Positions 27,638 through 39,181 of a DNA stretch of 64,000 nucleotides are shown one piece after another. The notes under the pieces were generated by a model. The model saw nothing but the letters and a program-made list of their open reading frames with translations, did no database searches and had not been told where the DNA came from. Numbering within the stretch: the first letter of the stretch is position 1; the number at the start of each line of letters is the position of its first letter. Both the position numbers and the translations under genes were made by a program. This stretch comes from an uncultured Tolumonas sp. (GTDB lineage: Bacteria; Pseudomonadota; Gammaproteobacteria; Enterobacterales; Aeromonadaceae), in NCBI RefSeq assembly GCF_963556105.2, contig NZ_OY829948.1, positions 1 through 64,000 on the forward strand. The letters are read 5' to 3'.

Positions 27638-27713
27638 TGGTGTCCCCACCAGGACTCGAACCTGGATCTTACGCTTAGGAGGCGCACGCTCTATCCTGCT
27701 GAGCTATGAGGAC
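27638..27713 (-). tRNA. tRNA-Arg (anticodon CCT)
   Basis: The minus strand folds into a full cloverleaf. The acceptor stem is GTCCTCA with TGGGGAC. The D stem is GCTC/GAGC. The anticodon stem is TGCGC/GCGTA with loop CTCCTAA, giving anticodon CCT. The T arm is CCAGG-TTCGAGT-CCTGG. The discriminator A is followed by an encoded CCA. Total length is 76 bases. Confidence 0.97.
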
Positions 27714-29500: not shown

Positions 29501-29863
29501 CACTGGAAACACCTCTTTATTCGGATGCTGTTAGTCACGATCCCTGACAGCAGTGATGTTTGTATAGCCGTTATGCCGCAGACTTCCTTCATCCACTTCC
29601 GTTATTAATTCTAGCTCCTCTGCGCAAGATGTGTACGAGTGACATCATTTGGTTTGAATGAGTACAAAATTTCAAAAAACCACGATCATGATCACATTTA
29701 TAGTGAAGTTGGCAGCAGCTTAATAATAAAAATATGTGTTTTTTATCAAGCTAATAGCCAATGATATAGATTTAATCTATATCACAAGTTAAAAAAAATA
29801 TTTCATTATTAGTAAAAGGATGTTTAGCATGCCTGAGATCCAGTCAACTACAGGAGTAACCTC
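29501..29863. other. Intergenic region before the orphan EIIB gene
   Basis: This AT-rich 360-base stretch holds a 23-bp LysR-type palindrome (29762-29784) and the promoters of two divergent genes. No short reading frame with a ribosome site was seen. A possible CRP half-site (GATCACA near 29693) is too weak to call. Confidence 0.6.
29762..29784. promoter_or_regulatory. LysR-type operator 1 (upstream of EIIB gene)
   Basis: A near-perfect palindrome with arms TGATATAGATT and AATCTATATCA around one central T. It contains the T-N11-A core of LysR-type boxes. It matches 21 of 23 positions of the site upstream of the LysR gene and the sugar ABC operon, and stands 80 bases before the EIIB start. 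Confidence 0.8.
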
Positions 29864-30196
29864 ATGGATGCTAAAGTGGTCGCGCAACAAATTTTTGAAG
29901 CGCTAGGCGGTAATGAAAATATTATTTCATTGGTCTATTGCGCCACGCGGTTGCGGTTTGTACTCAATGACGATTCAGTGGTCGATGAAAATAAACTGGC
30001 ACAAATCACTGAGGTCACAGGAACATTCCGTACCGGTGGTCAATATCAGATCATTCTGGGTATGGGTAAGGTCAAATTGGCTCATGATGAATTAATACAA
30101 TTGATCGACTCAGCACAACAAGAAGTAGCACCGGAGTCTCTGAACCCTGTGCAGAAAGCCGTAAAAGTGATATCCGATCTAGTCAGTAAAAACTAA
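29864..30196 (+). CDS. Orphan glucose-family PTS EIIB domain protein
   Basis: It is a stand-alone EIIB domain (110 residues) of the glucose/glucoside PTS family. The phosphorylated cysteine is present at residue 26 in VYCATRLRF. The C-terminal tail (NPVQKAVKVISDLVSKN) looks like the linker that leads to an EIIC domain in fused permeases, but a stop follows and no EIIC is nearby. It may be a truncated permease or a free phosphocarrier with a regulatory role. The start has AGGAG 7 bases upstream. The shared operator links it to the following alpha-glucoside ABC operon, an unusual pairing. Confidence 0.85.
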   Translation: MDAKVVAQQIFEALGGNENIISLVYCATRLRFVLNDDSVVDENKLAQITEVTGTFRTGGQYQIILGMGKVKLAHDELIQLIDSAQQEVAPESLNPVQKAVKVISDLVSKN

Positions 30197-30203
30197 TAAG
30201 CAC

Positions 30204-30236
30204 AGTCGGGAATATGGCCTGTTCATATTCCCGACT
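30204..30236. terminator. Bidirectional hairpin between EIIB gene and LysR gene
   Basis: A perfect 13-bp stem, AGTCGGGAATATG with CATATTCCCGACT, and a 7-base loop between two converging genes. The T runs are short. Confidence 0.65.
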
Positions 30237-30250
30237 GATTATATTTATGA

Positions 30251-31177
30251 TTAAACAATTAAATGACGATTATTATCAAGATTCTCTCTAATTAATTTCA
30301 ATACATCTTGTATATGCATGTCATCTTGTTTCTCTCTAATTAGATAGATACCAACCGATCCTTTTGTATATTCCTCAGCCAAATCCAAACTGATTAAATT
30401 AAATTTATCGAAGAAACTGGCCATCGAACCTGGAAATGGTAAAAGCCCATTTGTATTACAAGCCAAATCAATCGAAGTTATAATTGAATTACTGCGATAC
30501 AGAATTTTTTCTGTTAAATGTAATTGCGTACGTTCTAGCTTTTTCGGCTGTAAATCTTCCATCACATGCACATGGCGTATTTCATCGGGTGTAATTTCAA
30601 TTGTTGGATATTCCACTAAATCATCTAGCGTGCAAGGTCGTAAACTCAGCGGATGCCCTTCCCTGACAAACACTTTATCATGTGAAATAAATAGTGGAAT
30701 AAACAGTACACCGGCACGTTTATTCAGCCCGGATATTTCATGACCAATAAATAGATCAATGTCGCCGCTTAATAGCAGATCCATTAAGCGCAGATGGTTA
30801 CCAATATCGATATAAATATTCGCAGCCGGATGTTCTTGGCGATAGGCATCGATTGTGTCTTTTAGAAAAACATACCACCACGCATGACCAGAACCGATGC
30901 GTAATTCCCGTTCATGACGCTCTTTCAACATCTCTATTTTGGTCAGCGTATTATCATAAATACGCTGCATGATCCGGGTTTGCTCTAGTAATACTTCTCC
31001 AAACTCCGTTAATTTCATGCCGTTAGAAGTACGGATAAACAATTGCACATCGAGTGACTCTTCCAGCTTCTTCATATTGTGAGTCAACGTTGGTTGACTC
31101 AAACACAGTTTTTTCGCTGCATGACTCACATTTTGTAACGTGGCGACTTCGAGGAATTGCTGCAAAATCTTATCCAT
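30251..31177 (-). CDS. LysR-family transcriptional regulator of the alpha-glucoside cluster
   Basis: The N-terminal winged helix-turn-helix covers residues 3-62, with SHAAKKLCLSQPTLTHNMKKLE as the recognition region. The rest is a LysR substrate-binding domain. The ATG at 31177 is preferred over a GTG two codons earlier. It is divergent from the sugar-binding-protein gene, the usual LysR layout, and its product is expected to bind the palindrome at 31196-31218. The same layout, a LysR regulator (palR) next to alpha-glucoside ABC and GH13 genes, is known from the palatinose cluster of Erwinia rhapontici. The inducer is unknown. Confidence 0.85.
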   Translation of the reverse strand: MDKILQQFLEVATLQNVSHAAKKLCLSQPTLTHNMKKLEESLDVQLFIRTSNGMKLTEFGEVLLEQTRIMQRIYDNTLTKIEMLKERHERELRIGSGHAWWYVFLKDTIDAYRQEHPAANIYIDIGNHLRLMDLLLSGDIDLFIGHEISGLNKRAGVLFIPLFISHDKVFVREGHPLSLRPCTLDDLVEYPTIEITPDEIRHVHVMEDLQPKKLERTQLHLTEKILYRSNSIITSIDLACNTNGLLPFPGSMASFFDKFNLISLDLAEEYTKGSVGIYLIREKQDDMHIQDVLKLIRENLDNNRHLIV

Positions 31178-31195
31178 GATCACTCTCTGATATCC

Positions 31196-31218
31196 TGATA
31201 TAGATTAATTCTATATCA
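31196..31218. promoter_or_regulatory. LysR-type operator 2 (between regulator and ABC operon)
   Basis: Arms TGATATAGA and TCTATATCA around TTAAT. It is nearly the same as the site at 29762-29784. It lies 18 bases before the regulator start and 137 bases before the binding-protein gene, fitting autoregulation and activation of the operon. Confidence 0.82.
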
Positions 31219-31355
31219 CAGCCAAAATAAAGCATTTCTTTTTGACCTTTAGCCTCATTAACATAGCCCTCGTTCAAGCATCACACGTTCAGCTGGCTAT
31301 GCTTTATGGATGATTATCCGGCTGAATACTCTAATAACGATGACGAGAGGTTACT

Positions 31356-32624
31356 ATGAAAAAACACACCCTGGGTCTTATCGCTACGTTGGTTGCCGGC
31401 GCACTGAATACTGCGCACGCCGATACGCTGAAAATGGAATGTGCCAGCACCAGCACCGGTAAAGCCTACTGTGATTACATCAAAGCCCGCTTTGAAAAAG
31501 AAACCACCAACAAACTGGAGTTTGTGCAGTTACCTCCCGCATCTGACGAAAAACTAGGTTTATTCCAGCAAATTTTCGCCGCTAAAGACAGTAAAGCCGT
31601 CGATGTATTCCAAGCCGATACCGTGTGGTTGGGTGTGTTAGACAAGCATCTGTTAGACCTGAGTGACAAAGTAAAAGATCTGCAACCACTGTTCTTCCAG
31701 TCTGCCTGGAACAACGATGTAGTTAACGGCAAAGTGAAAGCCATTCCCGCCTTCCTCGATGCGGGTGCTATGTATTACCGCAAAGACTTACTGGCTAAAT
31801 ATAACGAACAACCACCACAAACCTGGGAAGAGCTGACCCGTATCGCCGCGAAGATCCAAAAAGGTGAACGCGACGCCGGTAAGAAAAACTTCTGGGGTTT
31901 TGTTTTCCAGGGTAAAGCCTATGAAGGTATGACTTGTGATGCGATGGAATGGATTGCTTCTTATAACGGCGGCACATTCGTGGATAAAGATGGCAAAGTC
32001 ACCGTGAATAACCCTCAGGCCGCCAAAGCCTTGAATACAGCAGCTGGCTGGATCGGCACCATTTCACCGAAAGGTGTATTGGGATATATGGAAGAAGAGT
32101 CCCGTGCTGTCTTCCAGAATGGCGATGCGGCTTTCATGCGTAACTGGCCATATGCCTATGTATTGGCACAAGATCCAACCAGTCCGATTAAAGGTAATGT
32201 CGGTGTTATTCCAGTACCGAAAGGCGGTGCAGATGGTCAGCATGCTGCGACATTGGGTGGCTGGCAATGGGCAGTTAGCGCTTACACTGAACACCCTGAT
32301 GCAGCTATTCAGCTGATCCGCATTCTGACTGATGCTGAATCACAAAAAATGCAGTTCAAAACCGTGGGCGTCGCGCCATCTCGTTTAGATGTGTATCAAG
32401 ACCCTGAAGTTATGGCCTCTGCACCTTATCTGGCTGAATTCAAGGATGTCTTCGCCTCTGCAGTTCCTCGTCCTGCAGTAGAAACCAAGTCTCAGTTCCC
32501 GAAAGTATCGAAAGCTGTTTTCAATGCGGCCTATGACGTGTTGAGCGGTCGGGCAACCGGTGAAAAAGCAGTTGCCGATCTGGAAAGCAAACTGAAACGC
32601 ATCAAAGGTAAAGAGTGGAAGTAA
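31356..32624 (+). CDS. Sugar-binding protein of alpha-glucoside ABC transporter (PalE/ThuE-like)
   Basis: This periplasmic family 1 solute-binding protein is predicted to capture an alpha-glucoside such as a sucrose isomer, trehalose or maltose. The signal peptide ends near residue 22 (LNTAHA-DTLK). The mature part has the SBP_bac_1 pattern, including AVDVFQADTVWLGVLD, AIPAFLDAGAMYYRKDLL and GGWQWAVSAYTEHPDAA. The ATG has GAGAGG upstream. It is the first gene of the operon; an intercistronic hairpin follows it. Confidence 0.87.
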   Translation: MKKHTLGLIATLVAGALNTAHADTLKMECASTSTGKAYCDYIKARFEKETTNKLEFVQLPPASDEKLGLFQQIFAAKDSKAVDVFQADTVWLGVLDKHLLDLSDKVKDLQPLFFQSAWNNDVVNGKVKAIPAFLDAGAMYYRKDLLAKYNEQPPQTWEELTRIAAKIQKGERDAGKKNFWGFVFQGKAYEGMTCDAMEWIASYNGGTFVDKDGKVTVNNPQAAKALNTAAGWIGTISPKGVLGYMEEESRAVFQNGDAAFMRNWPYAYVLAQDPTSPIKGNVGVIPVPKGGADGQHAATLGGWQWAVSAYTEHPDAAIQLIRILTDAESQKMQFKTVGVAPSRLDVYQDPEVMASAPYLAEFKDVFASAVPRPAVETKSQFPKVSKAVFNAAYDVLSGRATGEKAVADLESKLKRIKGKEWK

Positions 32625-32631
32625 GCATGAT

Positions 32632-32659
32632 AGTGCTGCCCTGATTTCGGGGCAGCACT
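32632..32659 (+). promoter_or_regulatory. Intercistronic hairpin after binding-protein gene
   Basis: Arms AGTGCTGCCC and GGGCAGCACT with an 8-base loop and no T run. Such structures often stabilise the upstream messenger so that more binding protein than permease is made. Confidence 0.7.
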
Positions 32660-32695
32660 GCCGTTCTGCTTTCGGACCACAAGGAGTAAACGTTG

Positions 32696-33697
32696 ATGAA
32701 CCACCATTCCGAATCATTGCCTTCCAAAGGAAGTAGCTCGAAGGCAACGCTGCACAACGAAGTCATTCCTCAGAAGAAAAAACGCAGTCTGCAACAACGC
32801 CGCAGCCGTGCAGCATGGATCTTAATTGCTCCTGCACTGATCTTGTTGGCATCGGTAGCGGGCTGGCCATTACTGCGCACCCTGTTTTACAGCTTTACCG
32901 ACGCCGCATTAGATACCCCGGATGTTTATAACATGGTGGGCTTTGATAACTACCTATCTTGGGTTGATGGCGAAAGCTTTGGTGTATTAGCTGACCCACT
33001 GTGGTGGAAAGCGGTATTAAATACACTCTGGTTTACCGGCATTTCGGTGTCATTTGAACTGTTCTTCGGTATGTTGTTGGCATTATTGATGAACCAAAAA
33101 TTCCGCGGGCAAGGTTTGGTTCGTGCAGCCATTCTGGTGCCATGGGCCATTCCTACTATCGTGACTGCCAAGATGTGGGGCTGGATGTTCCACGATCAAT
33201 ACGGTGTGATCAACGATCTGCTAACACGCGTTGGTATCATCCATGAACCACTGGCATGGATCGCGGAAGCGAATCTTTCTATGTGGGCGGTGGTTTTTGC
33301 TGATGTGTGGAAAACCGTGCCATTCATGGCGCTTATGTTGCTGGCAGCCTTGCAGATGATCCCGTCCGATCTCTATGAAGCCGGTCGTGTCGATGGTGCT
33401 ACTGCATGGCAACGCTTCACCCGTATCACCCTGCCGTTGATTATGCCTGCCATGATTGTGGCGCTGATCTTCCGGGTCATGGATGCCTTGCGTGTGTTCG
33501 ACCTGATTTATGTGCTCACCTCTAACAGTGAAGCCACCATCTCTATTTCTGGTTATGCCCGTGAACAGATGGTCTCTTATCAGCAAATGGGTTCCGGTTC
33601 TGCCGCTTCCGTTTTGGTATTCATGATGGTTGCCGGTATCGCTGCCTGTTTCCTCTACATCGGCCGTATGAATGACGAAGGCAAGGAGAACAAATAA
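32696..33697 (+). CDS. Sugar ABC transporter permease (MalF-like, PalF-like)
   Basis: This is an inner-membrane permease with a basic N-terminal tail (residues 1-40) and six predicted helices. The EAA loop that contacts the ATPase is visible as EAGRVDGATAWQRFTRITLPL near residue 225. The ATG at 32696 has AAGGAG 9 bases upstream; a TTG just before it is less likely. Its TAA overlaps the ATG of the next permease by one base. Confidence 0.88.
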   Translation: MNHHSESLPSKGSSSKATLHNEVIPQKKKRSLQQRRSRAAWILIAPALILLASVAGWPLLRTLFYSFTDAALDTPDVYNMVGFDNYLSWVDGESFGVLADPLWWKAVLNTLWFTGISVSFELFFGMLLALLMNQKFRGQGLVRAAILVPWAIPTIVTAKMWGWMFHDQYGVINDLLTRVGIIHEPLAWIAEANLSMWAVVFADVWKTVPFMALMLLAALQMIPSDLYEAGRVDGATAWQRFTRITLPLIMPAMIVALIFRVMDALRVFDLIYVLTSNSEATISISGYAREQMVSYQQMGSGSAASVLVFMMVAGIAACFLYIGRMNDEGKENK

Positions 33698-34542
33698 TGA
33701 AATTAACTCGTTGCCAACGCCATATTACTCACCAGACGTTGATTTATGCTGCTGCAGCGCTGGTCAGTGTTATCTGTGTGTTCCCGTTTTATAACGCTAT
33801 CTTGACATCTCTGCGTACCGGTCAGGAGTTGTTTCTGACTAACTATCTGCCCACATCGTTCCATTGGGAAAACTACGTAAACGCTCTGATGGTGAATGGT
33901 ATTGCCCGCAGTCTGCTGAACTCATTCATCGTCGCCTCCGTGACGGTGGGGATCTGCTTACTGGTTTCCATTACCGCGGCCTTTGCTCTGGCTCGCATCA
34001 AGTTCAAAGGTCGTAAATATATCCTGTTCACCATCCTGTGTGTCTCCATGTTCCCGCAGGTAGCGGTGCTGTCAGGCATGTTTGAGCTGGTGCGCTTCCT
34101 CGGTTTGTATGACTCACTGGGCGCGTTGATCCTCTCTTACACCACCTTTTCACTGCCATTCACGGTGTGGGTACTGACCACGTTCATGAAGTCACTGCCT
34201 GTGGAATTGGAAGAAGCGGCCATCGTGGATGGTGCTGGTTTGTGGGTCATCATCAGCCGGATTTTCGCTCCCATCATGGGGCCATCGCTGGTCACTACCG
34301 GTCTGCTGGCATTCATTGGTGCCTGGAATGAATTCATGTTCGCTCTGACGTTCATTATCTCTAACGAACAACGCACCGTACCCGTCGCTATCGGCATGTT
34401 ACAGGGCGCCTCTCAGTTTGAATTGCCATGGGGCAACATCATGGCTGCCTCGGTTGTAGTGACGCTGCCGATTATTGTGATGGTACTGATTTTCCAGAAA
34501 CGCATTGTCAGCGGGTTGACCAGCGGTGCGGTGAAAGGTTAA
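33697..34542 (+). CDS. Sugar ABC transporter permease (MalG-like, PalG-like)
   Basis: This is the second inner-membrane permease of the transporter. Six helices are predicted, with a start of TLIYAAAALVSVICVFPFY. The EAA loop reads EEAAIVDGAGLWVIISRIF near residue 170. The length (281 residues) is standard for MalG-type subunits. It overlaps the end of the first permease by one base. Confidence 0.88.
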   Translation: MKLTRCQRHITHQTLIYAAAALVSVICVFPFYNAILTSLRTGQELFLTNYLPTSFHWENYVNALMVNGIARSLLNSFIVASVTVGICLLVSITAAFALARIKFKGRKYILFTILCVSMFPQVAVLSGMFELVRFLGLYDSLGALILSYTTFSLPFTVWVLTTFMKSLPVELEEAAIVDGAGLWVIISRIFAPIMGPSLVTTGLLAFIGAWNEFMFALTFIISNEQRTVPVAIGMLQGASQFELPWGNIMAASVVVTLPIIVMVLIFQKRIVSGLTSGAVKG

Positions 34543-34628
34543 CGCCACATCCACCCGATTATCTGAACGAACTTTTGTGATTAATGGTGTTCCCCACGGG
34601 AACGCCCCACAGTACAGGATGTAAAGCC

Positions 34629-35744
34629 ATGTCTCATTTAAGATTAGAGAAATTAAACAAACGTTACAGCGAACACGCTCAGGTCATCAAATCACTCGAT
34701 CTGCAGGTAAACAGCGGCGAATTTATCGTGATTGTTGGCCCGTCTGGCTGCGGTAAATCGACCCTGCTGCGCATGATCGCTGGTCTGGAAGATATCTCCG
34801 CTGGCAGTATGTATATCGATGGCACCTATGTGAACGATGATACCCCTTCCGAGCGTGGTATCGGTATGGTATTCCAGTCCTACGCGCTTTATCCGCACAT
34901 GAGCGTTTATCAAAATATGGCGTTTGGTTTGGAGCTGGCCGGTAAATCAAAAGAAGAGATCGATGCGAAAGTACAAAACAGTGCACGCATTCTGCAATTA
35001 GAACCATTGTTACAGCGTCGCCCGAAAGATCTCTCCGGTGGCCAGCGCCAGCGTGTCGCGATTGGTCGTGCCATTGCTCGCGAACCGAAATTGTTCCTGT
35101 TTGACGAACCGTTGTCGAACTTGGATGCCGCCCTGCGCGTTCAGATGCGTATGGAAATCGCCAATCTGCATAAACGTCTGGGCTCGACTATCATCTATGT
35201 TACCCACGATCAGGTGGAAGCCATGACACTGGCCGATCGTATTGTGGTGCTGAACAAAGGCAATATCGAGCAAGTCGGTACACCACTGGAATTGTATGAC
35301 CACCCGGCCAATGAGTTTGTTGCACAGTTTATCGGTTCTCCAAAAATGAATTTGATCCCCGCCAGTCTGGTTCAGGCTGGAGAGACAGAAAGCGTAGTGC
35401 GTCTGGATAACGGCAAACAATTGGTACTGCCTATCAGCACACCTCGCCATGCGGAAGGTCAGAGCGTCAATTTAGGTATCCGCCCAGAACATATTCTGTG
35501 GGGCAATGTGCAGGAATCACAATATCAGGCCAATGTTATGTTTGTTGAGCACATGGGTAACGAAACCTACCTCTATCTCGACAATGGCAATGCCAGCGAG
35601 CCATGGGTCGTGCGCAACGCAGAGCGTTCGGTCATTTCTGCCGGACAAACAGTTGGCGTGCAGTTGCCAGTTGAACATTGCTACTTATTTGATGGTGACG
35701 GTAATGCGTTTCAACGCCTGATCTCGACACAAAACAAACATTAA
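34629..35744 (+). CDS. Sugar ABC transporter ATPase (MalK/UgpC-like)
   Basis: ATP-binding subunit that powers uptake. It has Walker A GPSGCGKST, Q-loop FQSYALYPH, signature LSGGQRQRVA, Walker B LFLFDEPLSNLD and the switch histidine in YVTHDQVEAM. A C-terminal TOBE-type regulatory region follows from about residue 235. ATG at 34629 gives 371 residues and has AGGA upstream; an earlier in-frame ATG at 34584 has no support in the family. Confidence 0.9.
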   Translation: MSHLRLEKLNKRYSEHAQVIKSLDLQVNSGEFIVIVGPSGCGKSTLLRMIAGLEDISAGSMYIDGTYVNDDTPSERGIGMVFQSYALYPHMSVYQNMAFGLELAGKSKEEIDAKVQNSARILQLEPLLQRRPKDLSGGQRQRVAIGRAIAREPKLFLFDEPLSNLDAALRVQMRMEIANLHKRLGSTIIYVTHDQVEAMTLADRIVVLNKGNIEQVGTPLELYDHPANEFVAQFIGSPKMNLIPASLVQAGETESVVRLDNGKQLVLPISTPRHAEGQSVNLGIRPEHILWGNVQESQYQANVMFVEHMGNETYLYLDNGNASEPWVVRNAERSVISAGQTVGVQLPVEHCYLFDGDGNAFQRLISTQNKH

Positions 35745-35811
35745 TTAATTCTTCTGGCAGTCGTTCAGACTGCCAGTCTCTGGTTTCCATTACGAAATTA
35801 ACAGGCCGTGC

Positions 35812-37479
35812 ATGATGGACAGTAAAGTATTAGCTAAAAAATGGTGGCATAACGCGGTGGTGTATCAAATTTACCCACGCAGCTTCTGTGATGCCAATAA
35901 TGATGGTATCGGTGATATCGCCGGCATTATCAGCAAACTCGATTATTTACAGCAACTGGGGATCAACATCATCTGGTTGTCCCCTGTTTATAAATCACCG
36001 ATGGACGATAACGGTTATGACATCTCTGATTATCAGGATATTGCCGCCGAATTCGGTACGCTGGCTGAGATGGAAAATCTGATCGCGGAAGCGAAACAGC
36101 GCGATATCCAGATCGTGATGGATTTAGTGGTTAACCATACTTCCGATGAACACCCATGGTTTGTTGAAGCCAAAAAATCCAAAGACAACCCCTACAGGGA
36201 TTATTACATCTGGCGCCAGCCACAAGCTGACGGCTCGGCACCGAACGATTTTCACTCCTACTTCGGTGGTAGCGGCTGGGAGTTTGATGCCACCACAGGC
36301 GAATATTATTTCCACCAGTTCTCCAAACGCCAGCCGGATCTGAACTGGGAAAACCCCAAAGTGCAGGCCGAAGTGCACAACATGATGAACTGGTGGCTGG
36401 ATAAAGGTATCGGTGGCTTCCGCATGGACGTTATCGATCTGATCGGCAAAGAAATCGACCAAAAAGTCATGGCGAATGGTGCCCGACTGCATCCATTATT
36501 GCAGGAAATGAATAAAGCCACCTTCGGACATCGTGATGCCCTGACCGTTGGTGAAGCCTGGAGTGCCACACCAGAGATCGCCAAACTGTATTCTGATCCG
36601 GCACGTAATGAACTGTCGATGGTATTCCAGTTTGAACACATCACTATCGGCTGGCACCCGCAGCAGGGTAAATGGGAGCCACAAGCTTTTGATCTGATCA
36701 AACTGAAAAAAGTCTTCACCAAATGGCAAACCGAGCTGGCAGATAATGGCTGGAACTCCCTGTTTTGGGATAACCACGATTTGCCACGCGCGGTATCTAA
36801 ATACGGTGATACCGGTGAATTCCGCGTGGAATCGGCCAAGATGCTGGCAACCGCCCTGCACTTCCTCAAAGGCACGCCTTACGTCTATCAAGGCGAAGAA
36901 ATTGGCATGACGAACGTGCGCTTTGATTCCATTGATGATTATCAGGATATCGAATCGCTGAATCTGTATTACGAGCGCACTGCCGCTGGCGTACCTCATG
37001 AAAAAATGATGGAAGGGATCTACGCAAACGGCCGCGATAATGCCCGCACACCGATGCAGTGGAACAATGAAATCAATGCTGGTTTCAGCACCGCCAAACC
37101 ATGGCTGAAAGTGAACCCGAATTACACCGAAATTAATGTGCAAGCCGCATTGAATGAACCAGGTTCTGTCTTCTTCCACTACCAGAAACTGATCAAACTA
37201 CGCAAAGAACAGCCGATCATGACCTACGGGCAATACATCCCGTTGCTGGAAGATCATCCTGACGTCTTTGCCTATTTACGGGCACAGGATGATGAGCGCA
37301 TCGTCGTGATCAATAACTTCAGCGCGAAAAAAGTCACTTTGTCGTTACCGACTGAGATCCAATACATCAAAGGCCAGAGCCTGATCAGTAACTATCAGTC
37401 ACACCACAGTCTGGCTGATGAGATCACCCTACAACCTTATGAATCTTTTGCTGTTGCCTACAAGCAACCAGTGGCATGA
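35812..37479 (+). CDS. GH13 alpha-glucosidase, oligo-1,6-glucosidase-like (PalQ-like)
   Basis: A cytoplasmic retaining glucosidase of family GH13 (subfamily 29/31 type). The calcium loop DANNDGIGD lies at residues 28-36. Catalytic residues are Asp206 in GFRMDVID (nucleophile), Glu248 in TVGEAW (acid/base) and Asp323 in DNHD. The residue after the nucleophile is valine, which in Bacillus oligo-1,6-glucosidase favours alpha-1,6 bonds; isomaltulose or isomaltose are therefore plausible substrates (inference). No signal peptide. It follows the ATPase gene and precedes a second GH13 gene by 25 bases. Confidence 0.88.
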   Translation: MMDSKVLAKKWWHNAVVYQIYPRSFCDANNDGIGDIAGIISKLDYLQQLGINIIWLSPVYKSPMDDNGYDISDYQDIAAEFGTLAEMENLIAEAKQRDIQIVMDLVVNHTSDEHPWFVEAKKSKDNPYRDYYIWRQPQADGSAPNDFHSYFGGSGWEFDATTGEYYFHQFSKRQPDLNWENPKVQAEVHNMMNWWLDKGIGGFRMDVIDLIGKEIDQKVMANGARLHPLLQEMNKATFGHRDALTVGEAWSATPEIAKLYSDPARNELSMVFQFEHITIGWHPQQGKWEPQAFDLIKLKKVFTKWQTELADNGWNSLFWDNHDLPRAVSKYGDTGEFRVESAKMLATALHFLKGTPYVYQGEEIGMTNVRFDSIDDYQDIESLNLYYERTAAGVPHEKMMEGIYANGRDNARTPMQWNNEINAGFSTAKPWLKVNPNYTEINVQAALNEPGSVFFHYQKLIKLRKEQPIMTYGQYIPLLEDHPDVFAYLRAQDDERIVVINNFSAKKVTLSLPTEIQYIKGQSLISNYQSHHSLADEITLQPYESFAVAYKQPVA

Positions 37480-37504
37480 ACGCGGCAATTAAAGGATTAA
37501 TGTT

Positions 37505-39181
37505 ATGAGCAAACAAGTTACTCAACGCTGGTGGAAAGAAGCGGTTGCTTACCAGATCTACCCGCGCAGTTTTATGGATTCCAACGGCGATGGCATCGGC
37601 GATCTGAATGGCATTACCAGCAAGCTGGATTATCTGAAAAACTTAGGTATTGATGTCATCTGGATTTGTCCTATGTACAAATCACCAAACGACGATAACG
37701 GTTACGATATCAGTGACTATCAAGACATCATGGATGAATTCGGCACCATGGCCGACTTCGATCGCCTGCTCAGTGAAGTACATAGCCGTGGCATGCGCTT
37801 GATCCTCGATTTGGTGGTAAACCACACCAGTGATGATCACCCGTGGTTTCTGGAATCTCGTTCCTCGAAAGATAACCCCAAACGCGATTGGTATATTTGG
37901 CGTGATGGCAAAGATGGCAAAGAACCGAATAATTGGGAAAGCATCTTTAAAGGTTCTGCCTGGAAAAAAGACGAATTAACCGATCAATATTTCATGCATT
38001 TGTTCTCCAGTCGCCAGCCCGATCTGAACTGGGACAACATGGATGTGCGTAAAGCCGTGTATGACATGATGCATTGGTGGCTGAACAAAGGCATTGATGG
38101 TTTCCGTATTGATGCCATCAGCCATATGAAAAAAGAAGATGGCCTGACTGATATGCCCAACCCGGATGATCTGGAATATGTGCCCTCTTTCGATAAGCAT
38201 CTCAATGCCGATGGGGTGCTCGATTATCTCGACGATATGTGTAAAAACACCTTCACGCATTACGACATCATGACCGTGGGTGAAGCCAATGGTGTCTCAG
38301 CACTCCAGTCGGATGAATGGGTTGCAGAACGTCATAATCGCTTAAATATGATCTTCCAGTTTGAACATGTGAAATTATGGGAAGGCGACCCCACCAGCCC
38401 GCTGAACTTGTGTGAACTGAAAAAAATCTTCACCCGCTGGCAAGAAGAGCTTCACGGTAAAGGCTGGAATGCGCTGTATGTCGAGAACCACGACATTCCA
38501 CGCGTTATCTCTAAATGGGGTAATACTGATCGTTACTGGCGGGAAAGTGCAACAGCGATTGCGGCCATGTATTTCCTGATGCAAGGCACACCCTTTATTT
38601 ATCAGGGGCAAGAGATCGGTATGACTAACACCAAATTCTCATCTATTGAGGATTTTGATGATGTCTGGTCAAAAAACCGTTATCACAGCATGAAAAAAGA
38701 AGGCATGAGCGATGAAGCCATTCTGGGCTGGTTGTCGCTGACCTCTCGCGATAATGCACGAACCCCAATGCAGTGGGATGCCACCGCCAATGCGGGTTTC
38801 TCCACCACCAAACCGTGGTTGAAGGTGAACCCGAACTACACCACAATCAACGTGCAGCAACAGGAAGCGCAACCAGATTCAGTGCTTAATTTCTACCGTC
38901 AGATGATCCGTCTGCGTAAAGCGGAATCAGCGCTGGTATACGGTAACTATGAATTATTGATGGCTGATGACCCGCAGATCTATGCGTATACACGAACATT
39001 GAATTCACAAAAAGTAGTTATCATCTGCAACATGAGTGATCACGAAGCGTTATATCATCATGAGGAATTTAAGCTCTACCATGATCATCTGTGGCTGAAT
39101 AACTACGCGGTATTACCGCACACAGCCGTAAATCGTTTGTTATTGCAACCTTATGAAATTCGGGTTTATCGGGTAAGTTAA
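37505..39181 (+). CDS. GH13 alpha-glucosidase with GEANG signature (PalZ/trehalulase-like)
   Basis: A second cytoplasmic GH13 hydrolase of 558 residues. The calcium loop is DSNGDGIGD (25-33). Catalytic residues are Asp203 in GFRIDAIS, Glu260 in TVGEANG and Asp330 in ENHD. The residue after the nucleophile is alanine, which in Bacillus enzymes favours alpha-1,4 over alpha-1,6 bonds, so it may complement the first glucosidase (inference). The RLDRD-type motif of sucrose isomerases is not seen, so hydrolysis rather than isomerisation is expected. The ATG has AGGA about 8 bases upstream. It is the last gene of the operon. Confidence 0.87.
   Translation: MSKQVTQRWWKEAVAYQIYPRSFMDSNGDGIGDLNGITSKLDYLKNLGIDVIWICPMYKSPNDDNGYDISDYQDIMDEFGTMADFDRLLSEVHSRGMRLILDLVVNHTSDDHPWFLESRSSKDNPKRDWYIWRDGKDGKEPNNWESIFKGSAWKKDELTDQYFMHLFSSRQPDLNWDNMDVRKAVYDMMHWWLNKGIDGFRIDAISHMKKEDGLTDMPNPDDLEYVPSFDKHLNADGVLDYLDDMCKNTFTHYDIMTVGEANGVSALQSDEWVAERHNRLNMIFQFEHVKLWEGDPTSPLNLCELKKIFTRWQEELHGKGWNALYVENHDIPRVISKWGNTDRYWRESATAIAAMYFLMQGTPFIYQGQEIGMTNTKFSSIEDFDDVWSKNRYHSMKKEGMSDEAILGWLSLTSRDNARTPMQWDATANAGFSTTKPWLKVNPNYTTINVQQQEAQPDSVLNFYRQMIRLRKAESALVYGNYELLMADDPQIYAYTRTLNSQKVVIICNMSDHEALYHHEEFKLYHDHLWLNNYAVLPHTAVNRLLLQPYEIRVYRVS

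Follow-up and report, generated by a model that had tools for sequence, protein, structure and literature searches.

The control that the phosphotransferase system (PTS) has over ABC importers is usually put down to an action of EIIA-Glc on the transporter. In the Mlc/EIIB-Glc regulation of E. coli, the regulator is a ROK repressor and its EIIB partner is tethered to EIIC. Promoters activated by LysR-type regulators usually carry, in this order, a recognition site, an activation site and a -10 element. Structurally, such promoters are marked by a T-N11-A dyad, a second box near -35 and a divergent regulator gene. In E. coli, EIIA-Glc binds and inhibits MalK (inducer exclusion; PMC10305011, PMC6123446). 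In PMC4079955, ganC of Dickeya dadantii is entered as a truncated EIIBC component of a PTS, marked as putative. The gan locus of Dickeya and other enterobacteria resembles the locus described here in setting an orphan EIIB of the glucose superfamily beside a MalFGK-type ABC importer and glycosidases. It differs in its PtsG-type EIIB lineage, in the LacI-type regulator nearby and in its galactan substrate; its EIIB is also the 3'-terminal gene of the operon, whereas the EIIB described here has its own LysR-type promoter. An orphan EIIB beside an ABC importer is already known (ganC), and the alpha-glucoside case is a new form of it; a search of literature listings, mostly outside subscription papers, showed no alpha-glucoside ABC locus in which an orphan EIIB goes together with a LysR.

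The locus lies in the window, the whole stretch of 64,000 nucleotides of Tolumonas DNA that was analysed. Its gene order is an orphan EIIB gene on the plus strand, a LysR gene on the minus strand and an ABC/GH13 operon on the plus strand (31356-39181), with the following features:

29762..29784, no strand, 23-bp palindrome before the EIIB gene, predicted recognition site, TGATATAGATTTAATCTATATCA (read directly)
29790..29810, plus strand, activation-site-like second box TAAAAAAAATATTTCATTATT, its centre and that of the palindrome 27 bp apart (promoter layout)
29825..29830, plus strand, -10-like TAGCAT, start 52 bp from the palindrome centre (read by eye)
29864..30196, plus strand, orphan PTS EIIB, 110 aa, glucose superfamily, sucrose-type, Cys26 (Pfam PF00367, 7.5e-15)
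30203..30237, no strand, terminator-like hairpin where the convergent EIIB and LysR genes meet (-23.8 kcal/mol, z -5.84)
30251..31183, minus strand, LysR-family regulator, 310 aa (PF00126 and PF03466)
31196..31218, no strand, 23-bp palindrome between the LysR gene and the ABC operon, TGATATAGATTAATTCTATATCA (read directly)
31227..31241, plus strand, second box ATAAAGCATTTCTTT, its centre and that of the palindrome 27 bp apart, overlapping the expected -35 (promoter layout)
31259..31264, plus strand, -10-like TAACAT, start 52 bp from the palindrome centre (read by eye)
31356..32624, plus strand, ABC sugar-binding protein, SBP (PF01547)
32693..33697, plus strand, ABC permease, UgpA/MalF-like (PF00528)
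33697..34542, plus strand, ABC permease, MalG-like (PF00528)
34629..35744, plus strand, MalK-like ABC ATPase; the longest ORF starts at 34584 (E. coli MalK, 1.3e-120)
35812..37479, plus strand, GH13 alpha-glucosidase-like enzyme 1 (PF00128)
37505..39181, plus strand, GH13 alpha-glucosidase-like enzyme 2 (PF00128)

The LysR gene product has both the HTH and the substrate-binding domain (Pfam). The EIIB and LysR genes are convergent with a strong hairpin between them, so the EIIB gene has its own promoter and its transcript is probably monocistronic. A tRNA-like candidate, by sequence only, is seen at window positions 27640-27712. The importer is like E. coli MalEFGK2 in its permeases and its MalK-like ATPase (192 of 365 alignment columns identical to E. 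coli MalK), but a LysR gene and not MalT adjoins it, and the positions taken to be EIIA-Glc-sensitive mostly differ. Isomaltulose or trehalulose as its substrates would be guesses. At eight MalK positions which we take to be sites of inducer-exclusion-resistant mutations, the window ATPase is identical to MalK at two and differs at six, so that it might be insensitive to EIIA-Glc altogether; related ATPases of EIIB-less operons differ from MalK likewise.

The original prediction held that one 23-bp palindrome with a LysR-type core stands before both the EIIB gene and the ABC operon. Read directly, the two palindromes are indeed identical at 21 of 23 bases, both have the form TGATATAGA-N5-TCTATATCA, and each contains the T-N11-A core TAGA-N5-TCTA, with the LysR gene divergent from the ABC operon. 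Counted from the palindrome centre, the EIIB ATG follows the first palindrome at 91 bp and the SBP ATG follows the second at 149 bp; the second palindrome also lies 13-35 bp ahead of the LysR start codon at 31183. At up to three mismatches the pattern matches exactly twice within the window, and 100 dinucleotide shuffles of the window gave a mean of 0.02 matches, none reaching two. Across the whole genome (4.0 Mb, six contigs), two places match with no mismatch and one more with three; a reversed control pattern matched four places at up to three mismatches and one at up to two. The shorter TATAGA-N5-TCTATA, at up to one mismatch, occurs at six genome places versus 18 for its control, and only the two palindromes are exact. 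Neither the full pattern nor the shorter core gave extra operator copies above background in the 4.0-Mb genome. The search for further copies that came with the prediction thus returned only these two at up to two mismatches, and the motif does not stand at many unrelated genes. Two relatives carry a similar dyad elsewhere, TGATATAAAT...ATTTATATCA or close to this, at G071:C4:645632 and G070:C108:316.

The shared control region exceeds the palindromes alone. After them, 27 of 52 ungapped positions are identical between the two window promoters, a number reached by none of 20,000 mononucleotide shuffles (mean 14.5); within the 20-bp box, 13 positions are identical (shuffle fraction 0.01). Boxes, hexamers and spacing were read by eye from aligned promoter rows. 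The EIIB-side box of relatives is AAAAAAGCATTTC (G065, G066, G067 and a Klebsiella plasmid), AAAAATATTTCATT or, in genus g4, AAAAATCGATTT; the SBP-side box is ATAAAGCATTTCTTT or a close variant. On both sides, the centres of palindrome and box are about 27 bp apart. A TANSAT hexamer is located at +52/53 from the palindrome centre in all ten EIIB promoters (seven of genus g1, three of g4) and in 11 of the 12 SBP promoters laid out, G068 being the exception and the one-mismatch SBP promoter of G044 standing outside the count. Both promoters share this layout in eight relatives of two genera (G042, G045, G065, G066, G067, G070, G071 and G074). The arrangement is that of LysR-activated promoters, with the difference that it is also present at a separate, non-divergent promoter, that of EIIB.

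Searches of the family spanned 75 genomes. Of the 11 genomes in the window's genus, eight encode an EIIB orthologue of at least 65% identity, and both sites (up to two mismatches) are at the locus in seven (G000, the window's own genome, G065, G066, G067, G070, G071 and G074), a count in which the G070 locus is spread over two contigs, the contigs of G068 and G072 end inside the locus, and G069 and G073 are incomplete. Outside the genus, single pattern matches are found in 9 of 64 genomes; two of these (G042, G045) were traced to the locus. Genus g4 (G042, G044, G045) keeps the order EIIB-LysR-ABC-GH4-GH13-GH13, with one site ahead of EIIB and another ahead of SBP (in G044 with one mismatch). 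A third site, 27 bp upstream of LysR, fits autoregulation. The g4 genome G061 holds a degenerate copy in which the permease genes are fused together and EIIB is a 37-residue fragment. The ABC operon includes a GH4 gene in g4, G066, G068 and the Klebsiella plasmid. This conjugative plasmid (NZ_CP017452.1, L165) carries the entire EIIB-LysR-ABC-GH4-GH13-GH13 module between transposase genes, with identities of 64% over 77 residues for EIIB, 71% for LysR and 96% for permG. It keeps both palindromes and boxes; at +52, TAGCAT stands in the EIIB promoter, and TATTCT takes the place of TANSAT in the SBP promoter. A carbohydrate porin is encoded directly ahead of EIIB on the plasmid.

SBP orthologues (E <=1e-120) occur in 7 of 394 genomes, representing few, related lineages. 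Three of them (G000, G045, G268) have LysR and EIIB adjoining, and four (G181, G207, G269, G357) have neither in the 19-kb stretch, G207 holding an unrelated LysR, 27% identical, 7 kb off. G268, of another family, shows the ABC genes, then a gene with two tandem EIIB domains (L141:4363-4947; two PF00367 stretches, both with YCATRLRF), then LysR; the tandem form is found in 1 of 24 genomes of its family (E <=1e-18). The only exact core in this stretch lies between EIIB and LysR, and none that is exact precedes EIIB or SBP. In the same genome a second, shorter LysR frame closely like that of the EIIB locus (L157:729-1307) lies beyond the GH13 genes.

The core ATAGA-N5-TCTAT is exact within 400 bp before 18 of 19 LysR genes examined and has one mismatch at G009; mononucleotide shuffles reach such a match in 0-0.3% (0.65% for G009). 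The 19 are counted without G070, whose site was seen separately, and without a partial G021 match. Seven of the 19 belong to other genera of the family. At the loci of G009, G010 and G013 (L113, L115, L116) only homology and motif matches were considered. At the four with genes listed (L110, L111, L112, L114), LysR adjoins genes of about 1100 codons, and L111 and L114 also carry LacI, a MalX-like EIICB and an aminotransferase gene (Pfam-confirmed for L111). Three of the long genes were scanned and gave weak six-hairpin glycosidase matches (MGH1-like, GDE_C), L111 falling below the cut-off; as the Pfam matches are of this kind only, a reading of these genes as pullulanases was rejected. No orphan EIIB is beside LysR at these four loci, so this LysR subfamily is not always dependent on EIIB. 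The core is absent before the two GH4-linked LysR paralogues scanned (G000 and G065, two mismatches each, shuffle fraction 0.21-0.26), one of them GH4-linked by Pfam; the homology search gave six further paralogues of about 56%. The 56% paralogue divergent from a GH4 gene at L080:6945-9445 (G000:C1) has an upstream dyad, ATTGA-N5-TCAAT, at the same position. The core motif tracks this LysR across differing gene contexts, so the palindromes very probably belong to the LysR encoded between them. The idea that one regulator governs EIIB and the ABC/glucosidase operon gains from the promoter layout and from conservation across genera, and the adjacent LysR very probably controls EIIB, itself and this operon.

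The EIIB protein keeps its phospho-Cys in CxTRLR and belongs to PF00367/EIIB_glc; its best NCBIfam match is TIGR01996 (sucrose EIIBC), over residues 3-106 and below the full-length cut-off. Cys26, Arg29, Arg31, Gly59, Gln62 and Gly66 are invariant in all 17 aligned rows (nine orphan, eight full-length EIIBC). The protein is modelled with an EIIB fold (mean pLDDT 84.5, exceeding 90 over residues 1-80 and dropping to about 60 in the tail). Foldseek matches the model to three EIIB structures: 3ipj, then 3bp8, in which EIIB is bound to Mlc, and 1o2f, in which the partner is EIIA-Glc. Its tail, LNPVQKAVKVISDLV, resembles in alignment the linker of sucrose-type EIIBC, LNIVQRAARTLSN, which suggests that the orphan EIIB arose by truncation of an EIIBC. 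It is under purifying selection, with dN/dS about 0.1 (0.07-0.13 in 12 of 15 Tolumonas pairs with computable dS). Its named close relatives are 98 and 97% identical in a Tolumonas sp. MAG and 74% in T. osonensis, which places the host in or close to Tolumonas. There is no linked EIIC among the locus genes scanned, nor does the annotation of the Klebsiella plasmid show one within 14 kb, and without an EIIC the protein cannot transport alone. The genome contains a stand-alone EIIA-Glc-like gene, which together with the kept active site argues for phosphoexchange between EIIB and EIIA-Glc.

Linking a PTS phosphocarrier to an ABC sugar system had been called unusual, a description that finds no support in that form, as an orphan EIIB also ends a galactan ABC operon here and in other gammaproteobacteria. 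In G000, a second orphan EIIB, PtsG-type and 138 aa long, ends a galactan ABC/GH53/GH42 operon (G000:C2:208436-208849; L082:4437-4853), after which come LacI, galE and galT. Eight further gan-type loci show an orphan EIIB with ABC; they were picked for holding one and are uninformative on frequency, L145 and L148 being partial and the L145 EIIB overlapped by a longer frame. The combination is also present on plasmids of Pantoea (galactanase not annotated), E. coli, Citrobacter and Enterobacter, the last two found via their galactanase. The gan locus of Vibrio pSEA1 has no EIIB annotated, and a Lactococcus GH53 record has a lactose PTS near and neither an ABC system nor an orphan EIIB annotated nearby. 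A tree was built of 57 EIIBs; its alignment has few columns, its branches are long and many of its forks are uncertain. In this tree the gan EIIBs form their own clade among the PtsG-type (99/100) with the window EIIB outside this GanC-type clade, the window EIIBs group with G268 (87/84), and the g4 EIIBs group with the glucokinase-linked EIIBs of g4 (99/95). This placement suggests two or three separate recruitments of the orphan EIIB. The g4 protein may be a different EIIB lineage, so the trait would not be simply inherited. The g4 glucokinase gene has a one-mismatch LysR-type site ahead of it in G042, G044 and G061, and is followed by a further orphan EIIB in G044 and G061 (L109:1461-3016, L153:2042-3579); the G042 contig ends inside the gene, and the G045 flank has no glucokinase match.

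On balance, we consider it probable that LysR co-activates EIIB and the alpha-glucoside importer and that EIIB is a phosphoacceptor of P~EIIA-Glc that reports or buffers PTS state. The palindromes would be the recognition sites of LysR, binding being read from co-conservation. Together with a sugar-derived inducer, LysR would activate two promoters of the same layout, that of EIIB and that of the ABC importer and the two GH13 alpha-glucosidases, and its own gene is probably autoregulated through the second palindrome. EIIB would be phosphorylated on Cys26, most likely by P~EIIA-Glc, and would serve the locus as a dedicated phosphoacceptor, both steps leaning on knowledge of the family; use of the ABC-imported sugar would thereby be matched to the supply of PTS sugars. 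The direct target of EIIB could be LysR or EIIA-Glc, both being plausible. LysR is a plausible one because the genomes with SBP orthologues hold both LysR and EIIB (three) or neither (four), in a small, related sample. A narrower proposal, possible but doubtful, is that the phosphorylation state of EIIB, set via EIIA-Glc, directly alters LysR activity, making a built-in, plasmid-carried PTS sensor that evolved more than once. As in Mlc/EIIB-Glc, whose 3bp8_C chain the model matches, a free EIIB could in principle bind a transcription regulator; unlike there, the regulator here is a LysR and the interaction is conjectural.

EIIB may instead be a decoy or sink for EIIA-Glc, induced with the importer and freeing the MalK-like ATPase from inducer exclusion. 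The inhibition of E. coli MalK by EIIA-Glc (PMC10305011, PMC6123446) and the likeness of the window ATPase to MalK speak for it, as do the match of the EIIB model to 1o2f, the EIIB bound by EIIA-Glc, the company that orphan EIIBs keep with MalK-type ABCs in two kinds of operon, and the doubled capacity that a tandem EIIB would give. Such shielding of the importer is downgraded to unlikely because six of the eight MalK positions considered differ in the window ATPase; the ATPases of EIIB-less operons differ likewise, and a decoy does not strictly require the Cys. We favour the reporter of PTS state as the reading of EIIB.

The genome also encodes full-length EIIBCs of this superfamily, and EIIB might act in trans to complete a PTS permease that lacks an EIIB. 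This is very unlikely: of 18 EIIC places, eight carry an EIIB of their own in frame, and the other ten are of classes with other EIIBs (four lactose/cellobiose-type, one mannitol, five fructose-type), so that no intact glucose-type EIIC without its own EIIB is among them. Outside the 18, the sole broken glucose-type EIIC (G000:C5:269469-270738, with in-frame stops) adjoins its own EIIB on the same contig, and the transporter co-regulated with the orphan EIIB is an ABC system. That EIIB is a functionless relic of a truncated EIIBC, as its linker-like tail and the broken copy in G061 could indicate, is the least credible account given the low dN/dS, the kept promoter and catalytic residues, and the plasmid-borne locus. 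Perfect long dyads are typical of other regulator families too, and the palindromes could serve one of those with LysR a bystander; this is highly improbable, as the core follows this LysR through different contexts and a scan of three enterobacterial-type ABC loci without it (L142-L144) found no exact core.

The pairing of EIIB with an importer in several bacterial groups and on a Klebsiella plasmid suggests that the protein has a job. With a conserved, apparently co-induced and non-transporting EIIB in two operon types, once in tandem, the reporter of PTS state that we favour would represent a second kind of link between the PTS and ABC importers.
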